In this document: piece by piece, positions 16,829-20,188 of the stretch
Layout of the letters: every line of letters begins with the position of its first letter
Numbering within the stretch: the first letter of the stretch is position 1
Assembly (NCBI GenBank): GCA_945872355.1
Contig: CAMBZU010000030.1
Span: 1-38,206, forward strand
Direction of reading: 5' to 3'
DNA: 38,206 nucleotides
Origin: Chitinophaga pinensis
GTDB taxonomy: Bacteria > Bacteroidota > Bacteroidia > UBA4408
The notes under the pieces: generated by a model
Database searches by the model: none
Told to the model about the DNA's origin: nothing
Seen by the model: only the letters and a program-made list of their open reading frames with translations
Program-made: the position numbers and the translations under genes

Positions 16829-18229
16829 TTACAATGTTTTAATTTCAGCAACTAAAGTAGTAAGTGCTTTTTTGGCATCTCCAAAGAACATACTACATTT
16901 TGGATCATAAAATAACAGGTTGTCGATACCAGCATAACCAGCACTCATACTACGTTTGTTTACAATAATATTTTTAGCTCTATCAACTTCTAAAATAGGC
17001 ATACCAAAAATTGGTGAAGAAGGATCTGATTTAGCTGCAGGGTTTACAACATCATTTGCTCCTACTACCAATACAACATCTGTTTGATCAAATTCAGGAT
17101 TGATTTCATCCATCTCTACCATTTTATCATAAGATACATTGCTTTCTGCCAATAGCACATTCATGTGACCAGGCATACGACCAGCCACAGGATGAATAGC
17201 ATATTTAACTTCAACACCACGCTCCTCTAATAAAAGTTCCAACTCATGAATTACATGTTGTGCTTGTGCAACGGCTAAACCATAACCAGGCACAATAACT
17301 ACTTTTTTACTGTAATTCATTAATATAGCCAAATCGCTCACACCAATATCTTTAATTGAGCCATTTGTTTCAGCTCCTGCATCAGCTGTTGCTGCGCCAC
17401 CACCAAATGCACCAAAAATTACATTACTTAAAGGACGGTTCATGGCTTTGCACATTATTAATGTCAATAAAGTACCGGCTGAACCAACCAAAATACCACC
17501 AGTAAGCATTACCTTGTTATCATATAAAAAACCTCCGAATGCAGCAGCCAATCCGGTAAATGAATTTAATAATGAAATTACAACTGGCATATCTGCTCCA
17601 CCAATTGGAATGGTAAATAATATTCCATAAATAATGGCAGAAGCAAACAATAAATAAAGCAATGTCATATTGCCACCTGTAACTACCATATACGCGCCAA
17701 AGGCCAATAAAGCAATCATTACAATAGTATTTAATATATTGTATTTAGGCAATCGAATTGGCTTTGCCATTGCGCCATTCAGTTTGAGATAAGCAATAAT
17801 ACTTCCCGAAAAAGAAACAGTTCCAATGATTAAACCAGCCATTATAGCAGTGATTTCACCCATTGAAGGAACACTATCCAAAGCATGTTGCATGTGACTG
17901 TACTCAATAATTGAAATTAATGCTGCACAAGCACCGCCCATGCCATTAAACATAGAAACAAGTTCAGGCATTTTAGTCATTTGTACTTTTTTGGCTGTCA
18001 TCCAACCAACAATAGTACCTATGCCAATGGCGCCAAAAATCAATCCGTAAATGATAGGACTGACTTCATTATCGTGCAAAAAAATGGTTCCTATAATTGC
18101 GATAGTCATACCCACAGCACCAATTAAATTGCCTTTTCTAGCGGTTTTAGCATTGCCCATCATTTTTAAACCTACTATAAAGGTGATGGAGCCTATTAAG
18201 TAGCAAATTTCAAGTATATTGTGTTTCAT
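16829..18229 (-). CDS. pntB: NAD(P) transhydrogenase subunit beta
   Basis: The beta subunit of proton-translocating transhydrogenase, which uses the proton gradient to reduce NADP with NADH. Its 466 residues carry about nine membrane segments (residues 5-265), then the NADP-binding domain: VIVPGYGLAVAQAQHVIHEL, HPVAGRMPGHMNVLLAE, VVLVVGANDVVNPAA and the C-terminal KRSMSAGYAGIDNLLF. It belongs with pntAA and pntA2 upstream on the same strand. Unusually, nearly 500 bases containing a four-helix-bundle gene separate it from pntA2, so its expression may depend on read-through of, or a promoter in, that insert. Confidence 0.97.
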   Translation of the reverse strand: MKHNILEICYLIGSITFIVGLKMMGNAKTARKGNLIGAVGMTIAIIGTIFLHDNEVSPIIYGLIFGAIGIGTIVGWMTAKKVQMTKMPELVSMFNGMGGACAALISIIEYSHMQHALDSVPSMGEITAIMAGLIIGTVSFSGSIIAYLKLNGAMAKPIRLPKYNILNTIVMIALLAFGAYMVVTGGNMTLLYLLFASAIIYGILFTIPIGGADMPVVISLLNSFTGLAAAFGGFLYDNKVMLTGGILVGSAGTLLTLIMCKAMNRPLSNVIFGAFGGGAATADAGAETNGSIKDIGVSDLAILMNYSKKVVIVPGYGLAVAQAQHVIHELELLLEERGVEVKYAIHPVAGRMPGHMNVLLAESNVSYDKMVEMDEINPEFDQTDVVLVVGANDVVNPAAKSDPSSPIFGMPILEVDRAKNIIVNKRSMSAGYAGIDNLLFYDPKCSMFFGDAKKALTTLVAEIKTL

Positions 18230-18251
18230 AAATGTTGAATAAATTCTATTC

Positions 18252-18714
18252 CTAAATTCTAATCTCTAAAAACTAAATTTTAATCCCGATAACTATCTGG
18301 ATTAACTACTAAATTATAACTAAACCTTATTACTTATTTTATTCCTGTAAATAGCGCTCATAATGTTTTTTAACTCTATTGCTTCATTTATATAAGTTTG
18401 TTCTTTCTATTTCCAGAGTATCCAATTTTACATCCACTAGCCTCAACCATAAAATAGATTCTTTTGCTTCTTTCTTGCAGTTTCTTAATTTCATTAAAAG
18501 ATCTTTTTCTCCAAGTTTTTCGTTTGCTTCAATATAATTTGCTGCCACTGACCCTGATGAACGTACTACTTGTTTTATGTCTTCTTTATTCCAAGTATTA
18601 ACTTCTAATTTTCTTACAAATAATCTTATATCTCTTGCAAATTCAAAGGTTCTTTCTTCTAAATCATAAACCTTTTTGGAACCTTCCATTTAGAATTTAG
18701 TTTTTAGAATTTAG
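18252..18714. repeat. Inverted-repeat-flanked insert in the pnt operon
   Basis: Imperfect inverted repeats bracket the four-helix-bundle gene. CTAAAAACTAAATT at 18266-18279 has an exact inverse at 18694-18707, and the neighbouring CTAAATTCT at 18252-18260 has an exact inverse at 18706-18714. On the left the two blocks are split by about seven extra bases; on the right they overlap. The repeats lie just outside the gene, and the unit sits between pntA2 and pntB, which are normally adjacent. No transposase is present and no target duplication is obvious. It could be a small mobile or transferred unit. Confidence 0.55.
18384..18689 (-). CDS. Four-helix-bundle protein (23S rRNA IVS type), C-terminal frameshift
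   Basis: The 101-residue frame encodes a four-helix-bundle protein of the family first known from 23S rRNA intervening sequences: VYDLEERTFEFARDIRLFVR, QVVRSSGSVAANYIEANE and LRNCKKEAKESILWLRLV are typical. The molecular role of the family is not established. Family members normally run about 20 residues longer. Just past the stop, another frame continues EAIELKNIMSAIYRNK to a TAG at 18320-18322, exactly the expected last helix. A single extra A in TATAAATGAA near 18383-18390 would explain the break. So this looks like a recent frameshift, a sequencing error, or a slightly shortened protein. Inverted repeats flank it within the pnt operon. Confidence 0.75.
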   Translation of the reverse strand: MEGSKKVYDLEERTFEFARDIRLFVRKLEVNTWNKEDIKQVVRSSGSVAANYIEANEKLGEKDLLMKLRNCKKEAKESILWLRLVDVKLDTLEIERTNLYK

Positions 18715-18725
18715 AATTTTTTCCT

Positions 18726-19031
18726 TTATTTTTTCTTAAACATTTCGAGCATACGATCGGTAACAACGAAGCCTCCAACCACATTAAGTGTTCCTAAAAG
18801 CACAGCTAAAAAACCAAGAATTAATGCCAAAATATTTTCAGTATCAACATTCAGCATCACATAAATGGCGCCAACGATAACAACGCCATGAATTGCATTA
18901 GCGCCACTCATTAAAGGCGTATGCAGCACTGTAGGAACACTGCCAATTACTTCAATACCCACAAAAATGGAGAGTGCCACAAAATAAATCATTTCACGAT
19001 GCACACTTACTAAATTTAGAATTTCTTCCAT
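18726..19031 (-). CDS. NAD(P) transhydrogenase subunit alpha, membrane part
   Basis: This 101-residue protein is the separate membrane piece of the alpha subunit (PntA2/PntAB type), fused to the NAD-binding part in E. coli. Three hydrophobic segments are visible: MIYFVALSIFVGIEVIGSVP, GANAIHGVVIVGAIYVML and ILALILGFLAVLLGTLNVVG, ending GGFVVTDRMLEMFKKK as usual. It forms the proton channel together with PntB. It lies 26 bases after pntAA. The next gene, a four-helix-bundle protein, interrupts the path to pntB. Confidence 0.95.
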   Translation of the reverse strand: MEEILNLVSVHREMIYFVALSIFVGIEVIGSVPTVLHTPLMSGANAIHGVVIVGAIYVMLNVDTENILALILGFLAVLLGTLNVVGGFVVTDRMLEMFKKK

Positions 19032-19057
19032 GTTTATATATTTAATTTTATTATTTA

Positions 19058-20188
19058 TTAAGCATTAATTGCAGTCTTCACACTTGGGTGAACGGCCTGT
19101 CCTTTATGAACTATTAAAGCACCTTTGGTAATTTCTTCATCCATTTCCCACTTAAAGCCTTCGCTGGTAGCTAAATGGTATAAAAAAGTTTGAATGTTTT
19201 TTGCGTATAAATCACTGGCATTCATTGGTAATAATGAAGGAATGTTACTTTCGCCAATGATCGTAACTCCATGCTTTTGCACTGTTTTATTTAATTCACT
19301 TCCTATCACATTTCCACCTTGTTCTACAGCCATATCCAATATCACTGAGCCAAATCGCATGCTTTTAACCATTTCTTCTGTTACCAAAAGGGGTGCTTTT
19401 TTGCCGGGTATTAAAGCTGTTGTAATTACAATATCAGCTTCCTTAACATGTTTAGCGACAGTTTCCTGTTGCTTCTTTAAAAACTCATCAGAAACACTTC
19501 TAACATAACCACCTTCTAATTTAATTGTATTGTCTGCGGGTACCTCAATAAATCTGCCACCTAAAGATTCAACTTGTTCTTTAGTATCAGGTCTGATATC
19601 AGAAACTTCTACAATAGCGCCTAAGCGTTTAGCTGTTGCAATTGCTTGCAGACCAGCCACACCAGCACCAAAAATAACTACCTTGGCAGGCTTAATTGTA
19701 CCGGCGGCAGTTGTCATCATTGGTAAAATTTTTCCTAAAGTATCTGCGGCTAAAATTACCGATTTGTAACCAGCCAAATTTGCTTGAGAAGATAAGGCAT
19801 CCATTTTTTGTGCTCTAGAAATACGTGGTACAGCATCCATGCTAAATGCAGAGATGTTGGCTTTACAACAAGCTTCAACCATGGCTGGGTTTGTAGCAGC
19901 AAAAAGGAAGGAAATGAGGATTGCTTCCTTCTTCATCATTGCTATTTCTTCTGGTGAAGGCGCATTAACGCGTAAAACAATGTCAGCATCTCTGTAAATC
20001 GCTGTTAAATCAACACTTACAGTTGCGCCAGCGGCGATGTATGCTTCATTCGAAAAAAATGAGCCTAAGCCTGCGCCTGATTCAACCATTACCTGAAATC
20101 CTTTACTTACTAAATCTTTTGCTACATCAGGTGTAATGGCTACTCGATTTTCTTTAAATTTAGTTTCTTTTAGTATTGCTATTCGCAT
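19058..20188 (-). CDS. NAD(P) transhydrogenase subunit alpha, NAD-binding part
   Basis: The soluble NAD(H)-binding subunit (PntAA) of the three-polypeptide transhydrogenase, 376 residues. It shows the alanine-dehydrogenase-like N terminus (MRIAILKETKFKENRVAITP), the segment SRAQKMDALSSQANLAGYKS, the dinucleotide-binding VVIFGAGVAGLQAIATAKRL and VEVSDIRPDTKEQVESLGG, and ADIVITTALIPGKKAPLLVT. It is the first gene of the pnt group. A near-consensus -7 (TACTTTTA) lies on the minus strand near 20250, without a convincing -33. The enzyme supplies NADPH for biosynthesis. Confidence 0.96.
   Translation of the reverse strand: MRIAILKETKFKENRVAITPDVAKDLVSKGFQVMVESGAGLGSFFSNEAYIAAGATVSVDLTAIYRDADIVLRVNAPSPEEIAMMKKEAILISFLFAATNPAMVEACCKANISAFSMDAVPRISRAQKMDALSSQANLAGYKSVILAADTLGKILPMMTTAAGTIKPAKVVIFGAGVAGLQAIATAKRLGAIVEVSDIRPDTKEQVESLGGRFIEVPADNTIKLEGGYVRSVSDEFLKKQQETVAKHVKEADIVITTALIPGKKAPLLVTEEMVKSMRFGSVILDMAVEQGGNVIGSELNKTVQKHGVTIIGESNIPSLLPMNASDLYAKNIQTFLYHLATSEGFKWEMDEEITKGALIVHKGQAVHPSVKTAINA

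Follow-up and report, generated by a model that had tools for sequence, protein, structure and literature searches.

A four-helix-bundle gene enclosed by inverted heptad arrays in the pnt operon of Chitinophaga pinensis resembles the intervening sequences of 23S rRNA

Why genes for S23-type four-helix-bundle proteins are so common is unexplained, and how the intervening sequences (IVS) of 23S rRNA originated and move has been a question for over 25 years. In Coxiella burnetii, the 23S rRNA IVS is 428 nt long and carries an S23 ORF in its loop; its terminal stem comprises 28 bp with one mismatch and one bulge, tandem heptamers (GACAGAT) of strain-variable number lie 5' of the ORF, RNase III excises the element, and the ORF is decaying (PMC4990558). 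Heptamers that pair in a hairpin, as in the element described here, are also known from the P6b stem of the cyanobacterial tRNA-Leu intron, where degenerate copies of variable number occupy both sides of the stem, although this stem is part of a group I intron and its loop is devoid of an ORF (PMC3488679). Intergenic 7-nt repeats such as the TAACTGA array are found in Bacteroidetes and Cyanobacteria, often just 5' of start codons; they differ from the arrays reported here in that they are direct, possess one fixed sequence, and have no report of flanking a single gene family in inverted pairs (PMC4679880). The S23 protein family, the rRNA IVS and the heptad stems of the tRNA-Leu intron (PMC3488679) are thus already known. 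For elements residing in operon gaps, for copy-specific inverted heptad arms, and for a link between heptad and protein subfamily, we found no description in the literature searched, which was short on subscription journals.

The stretch of DNA analyzed here, hereafter the window, comprises 38,206 nt of C. pinensis. On its minus strand it carries pntA2 (18726..19031; PF12769, the 4TM region of transhydrogenase) and, downstream, pntB (16829..18229; PF02233), and between the two an ORF of 101 amino acids for a four-helix-bundle (S23/23S rRNA IVS) protein (18384..18689, minus strand). This arrangement had been read from the sequence in the original prediction, and matches to TIGR02436, PF12769 and PF02233 confirm it. 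They are accompanied by support for the further statement that pntA2 and pntB are normally adjacent: among 30 relatives, 27 have a gap of 5-110 nt, and a length of 459-512 nt is confined to the three in which the gene is present. Both predicted repeat pairs (18266-18279 with 18694-18707, and 18252-18260 with 18706-18714) are indeed present and are exact reverse complements. We found an inverted repeat of 30 nt (18254-18283/18690-18719) with 90% complementarity. Its 5' arm in transcript sense (18690..18719, minus strand; stem strand 18694-18719) is placed immediately 5' of the ORF and consists of the tandem heptads AAATTCT, AAATTCT, AAAAACT and AAATTCT; the 3' arm (18254..18283, minus strand; stem strand 18254-18279) is the reverse complement of the 5' arm. 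The repeats are accordingly heptad arrays of the CTAAATT/AAATTCT type with no fixed terminal sequence. The local-alignment score of the two arms, 45, was reached by none of 5000 dinucleotide shuffles of both gaps (maximum 41) and, when 1509 pairs of positions with the same spacing were scored across the window, by this one alone. Folding as RNA in operon sense pairs the arms into a stem of 25 bp (9 + 16 bp with one interruption) that encloses the entire ORF in the MFE as well as in the centroid structure, with a modest z of -2.6. From outer arm end to outer arm end, the element measures about 466 nt. It lies outside any rRNA gene, and an Rfam search of positions 17900-19100 returned no match.

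The tie to insertions in 23S rRNA that had been proposed for this gene agrees with the anatomy of the Coxiella IVS (PMC4990558). The window element has in common with the 23S rRNA IVS a size of about 430-470 nt, a terminal inverted-repeat stem of 25-28 bp with a mismatch, a sense S23 ORF in the loop, and tandem heptamers before this ORF; the sporadic distribution and the ORF decay of the IVS are also seen for the operon elements. The two differ in their location, an rRNA helix for the IVS and the gap between the genes of a protein operon for the window element, whose cleavage by RNase III we propose by analogy. Heptads on both arms, moreover, are a feature of the operon elements, found at many loci. 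Because each anatomical point of the Coxiella IVS is matched, we consider it probable that the window unit is an RNA-hairpin element of the IVS type that resides, as a selfish or neutral entity, in the untranslated gap of a protein operon and is likely cut out by RNase III. The same anatomy, with inverted arrays of degenerate heptamers as arms, surrounds most four-helix-bundle genes of the Bacteroidia and their relatives in other phyla.

The window protein shares with the S23 family an HMM match and four predicted helices. It scores 49.5 bits against TIGR02436 (four helix bundle protein; cut-off 24) and 30.8 against PF05635, which is under the family cut-off of 33.8, and it departs from the family further in being frameshifted and in belonging to a divergent subfamily of the YDLEE/RSSGSxAANYIEAN type. 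Its AlphaFold model (pLDDT 91) contains four helices, of which helix 4 is truncated. The closest folds are the S23 proteins 2rld (TM 0.68) and 2gsc (TM 0.75), which are also its best sequence matches; the likeness to Avd and bAvd is more distant (TM about 0.55). This latter likeness would fit a protein that serves as an Avd-like accessory to the reverse transcriptase of a diversity-generating retroelement, with the arms as its template or target. However, no reverse transcriptase is found beside the locus, the ORFs in the 14-23 kb region of the window being ordinary metabolic genes, and the free-standing proteins 2rld and 2gsc fit the fold better; we thus regard such a role as very improbable.

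Near its end, the window ORF is broken by a frameshift that truncates the fourth helix: the conserved C-terminal segment YINEAIELKNIMSAIYRN resumes in another frame at about 18320-18397, and alignment with intact relatives identifies the displaced coding remnant there (18320..18397, minus strand) as YINEAIELKNIMSAIYRNKISNKV. This single lesion may be an assembly error. The pnt copies of two other genomes (G002 and G035) carry lesions unlike that of the window, and intact four-helix-bundle genes are present at the pnt site in L237, L239 and L256. An in-frame stop is found in 9 of the 24 best YDLEE-type copies recovered by a profile search of 395 genomes and in 6 of 8 pnt-site copies, yet the arms of the latter still pair.

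The host genome (G000) encodes five four-helix-bundle proteins with five different arm sequences, and most of the other four genes, like that of the window, are flanked by inverted short tandem repeats that differ from gene to gene. A second copy of the pnt repeat was not found in this genome, in which matches with one mismatch occur at the level of a reversed-pattern control. Since the repeat varies by gene and has no second copy, the ends are not a common transposon terminus. The search of the host genome for more copies with the same ends, by which the original prediction would have gauged mobility, consequently came back empty, and near-identical copies of the element were likewise not found there. 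Hairpin elements of the REPIN/RAYT and MITE type are small, palindromic, non-autonomous dispersed units that possess fixed common ends and depend on a transposase; the operon elements are small palindromic units as well, but their ends differ between lineages. A MITE-like transposon that moves at the DNA level through its terminal inverted repeats, with a transposase provided in trans, would explain why inverted repeats are present at both ends, why presence is patchy, and why there is movement between loci. It does not readily accommodate ends that are periodic arrays and differ among the copies of one genome, the lack of near-identical copies, or the strong bias toward co-directional operon gaps, and no target-site duplication was seen, the empty-gap sequences being too diverged to read boundaries. 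We therefore deem this explanation improbable. Of the small mobile unit originally envisaged, gain, loss and movement between loci are upheld (G001, G003, L238, L256 and a purE copy); a reading as a conventional transposon unit is not, as the periodic ends pair within a copy and the heptads of other copies differ. The suggested comparison with empty sites did yield gene-free pnt gaps, of 31 and 58 nt, in the congeners G001 and G003.

Genes of the four-helix-bundle (S23) family are present in 96 of the 119 Bacteroidia genomes searched. For 96 distinct Bacteroidia genes, we aligned the upstream flank to the reverse-complemented downstream flank. The median score was 36 for matched flanks, 18 for flanks of different genes (99th percentile 31), and 20 in direct orientation; 56 of the 96 matched pairs exceeded the mismatched 99th percentile, and at about a quarter to two fifths of the loci copy-specific pairing of the arms is weak or absent. 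The flanks on either side of these genes show autocorrelation maxima at 7, 14 and 21 nt. In a control sequence of 438 kb (the window and 20 further regions), a score of at least 30 was attained by 18 of 21 four-helix-bundle genes and by 6 of 364 other genes, and these six either lie close to four-helix-bundle genes whose heptads are similar (two regions) or represent a GxxExxY gene. Period 7 was the commonest among the arrays in this sequence, with 36 instances vs. 0-7 for periods 5, 6, 8, 10 and 11. Among longer simple repeats, heptanucleotides are the most frequent in most of the bacterial genomes that are rich in such repeats (Mrazek 2007, as cited in PMC4679880), and heptad arrays and hairpins that lack a gene also occur in operon gaps, so one might think of a by-product of replication slippage, in which AT-rich heptad repeats form independently between genes and flank the four-helix-bundle genes by chance. 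This would leave unexplained the inverted matching within a locus, the contrast to control genes, and the subfamily-specific heptads found across phyla; both the matched/mismatched flank test and the control-gene test disfavor it, and we give it hardly any credence.

The gene-less heptad arrays show that the arrays and the four-helix-bundle gene are separable. Such hairpins were observed in operon gaps of L158 (8553-14620), L153 (12420-12479), L161 (16273-16446) and L235; in L158, the heptads GTTGTTCGTTG recur in four gaps of a single fad operon and are unlike those elsewhere, as if locally spread. Long AATTACG heptad arrays surround two tandem four-helix-bundle genes on contig 1 of G001 (L149/L204) that have 96% DNA identity and represent a recent duplication. 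A Flavobacteriaceae MAG (L237) carries in its pnt gap, downstream of the gene, a long and very regular array that alternates AGAATTT and AGAYATT in a 14-nt unit and is an expanded 3' arm.

The heptad type tracks the protein subfamily: AAATTCC/AAATTCT accompanies the YDLEE type across phyla, AATTANN the KSGTS type, and AG[AT]NNNN the SNIAEG type. With subfamilies defined by motif, a procedure that leaves 24 of 97 loci without assignment, arm similarity amounts to 15.3 within and 9.6 between subfamilies (permutation p 0.001), and strand polarity is present. As its heptads are common to the subfamily, the own partner arm seldom ranks first among YDLEE-type loci (8 of 63), with a median rank of 7 vs. 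32 expected. Similarly, the arms of the pnt lineage are conserved between species and hence not copy-specific. G402 has arms that make up a near-perfect repeat of 73 bp. Here the 3' arm scores 136 to its own 5' arm vs. at most 98 to orthologous 3' arms, which argues for copying from arm to arm; in further species of this genus, arm evolution follows descent.

Four-helix-bundle genes are co-directional with both neighbors in 79 of 94 cases, vs. 165 of 346 control genes. They recur at fadB-fadA, sufB-sufC, between two metH halves, and at lpd, pnt, rimM-trmN6, purE-M3 peptidase and nuoM-nuoN, where all names outside pnt derive from reading the translated neighbors without family searches. One suf operon holds three copies in three gaps, and one LolA/FtsX operon three copies together with a GxxExxY gene. 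Occupancy of the fad gap is patchy, like that of pnt. In one densely sampled genus, the rimM-trmN6 gap carries an AAATTCC element in 8 of 31 species, and the copy of G451 is reduced to the arms and about 25 codons; gaps without the element mostly measure 52-107 nt. Because these element-free species often carry a short heptad array of another type (L312-L341), the gap is one that becomes refilled time and again.

In gene trees, the copy L238, which lies between other genes, falls into the pnt lineage and has the AAATTCT arms of that lineage; the occupant of the L256 pnt gap belongs to an unrelated lineage and differs in its arms; and the purE-site copies fall within the clade of the rimM site. 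The pnt gap has been invaded at least twice, and the metH sites have been colonized by several lineages. In AU tests, the gene tree rejects the neighbor-gene tree at fad and suf (dlnL 45 and 63), but this is partial evidence only, since control chunks of neighbor genes lead to rejection in 4 of 6 cases as well (dlnL 13-31). Cophylogeny was considered as proof of vertical descent and is weak, with a Mantel rho of 0.31-0.45 vs. 0.71-0.79 between neighbors. Some of the movement may reflect recombination of whole operon gaps. These data also bear on the proposal that the hairpin, the protein, or both are a device useful to the host that processes, stabilizes or decouples mRNA segments and is mainly inherited vertically, with losses. 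The use of the same sites across families, each tending to its own protein clade (one at sufB-sufC, one at pnt), the co-direction with the operon, and the retention of the stem in copies with a broken or partly deleted ORF (L317 and the pnt copies) are in line with such a device. Yet congeners live without the element and without visible harm, ORFs of the YDLEE subfamily decay frequently, the trees conflict at fad and suf within the bounds just given, and unrelated lineages share one site at metH and pnt, so that we find a host function unlikely.

The YDLEE subfamily also occurs in records labeled Cloacimonadota, Armatimonadota, Patescibacteria and Desulfobacterota, most of which are metagenome bins, so that single phylum labels may be wrong. 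All of the 14 relatives from other phyla that were checked lie outside rRNA genes. The YDLEE-type proteins of L247 and L250 (Cloacimonadota) and those of L242 and L245 (Armatimonadota) are nearly identical (branch lengths 0.03-0.16), which represents either recent transfer or a binning error.

Unrelated genes in operon gaps are flanked by repeats as well. GxxExxY (TIGR04256) genes in L170-L199 (e.g., L178, L185, L176 and L197) have inverted flanking arrays of roughly 10-nt, CACAGA-centered units, ACCACAGATTACACAGATT, with a median flank score of 32.5 for matched and 20 for mismatched pairs. Genes judged by eye to encode DUF559-like endonucleases (L200:8501-8935 and L202:8424-8771) are situated in gaps of the same operons, with palindromic repeats of their own nearby, CCCCTCTCAAGAGGGG.

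Tentatively, and with more doubt than confidence, one can picture the operon gaps of Bacteroidia as housing a large class of transposase-free hairpins with inverted short-tandem-repeat arms that copy each other, and with unrelated cargo genes: S23 with 7-nt units, GxxExxY with roughly 10-nt CACAGA units, and DUF559-like nucleases with palindromes. Such hairpins would spread as RNA or as single-strand hairpins, and the rRNA IVS would be a small branch of them.

For the IVS-type element that we favor, the data lend themselves to the following model. The operon would supply transcription of the element by co-transcription, and its paired arms would form a stem that RNase III could cleave. A stem cut in this manner would release the element from the polycistronic mRNA between two ORFs, and therefore at little cost to the host, so that it could persist as a selfish or neutral passenger. 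The S23 protein may act on the arms of its own element, and these arms may be rewritten via template-switching within the hairpin and slippage by 7 nt. If this holds true, unnoticed cleavage of mRNA is to be predicted between the subunits of core operons (pnt, nuo, suf and fad), and the linkage of heptad type and subfamily would provide a testable handle on the binding target and the action of the S23 protein. Should the operon elements be relatives of the IVS, then the latter would cease to be a peculiarity of rRNA and would be the one conspicuous branch of a widespread, mRNA-dwelling element.
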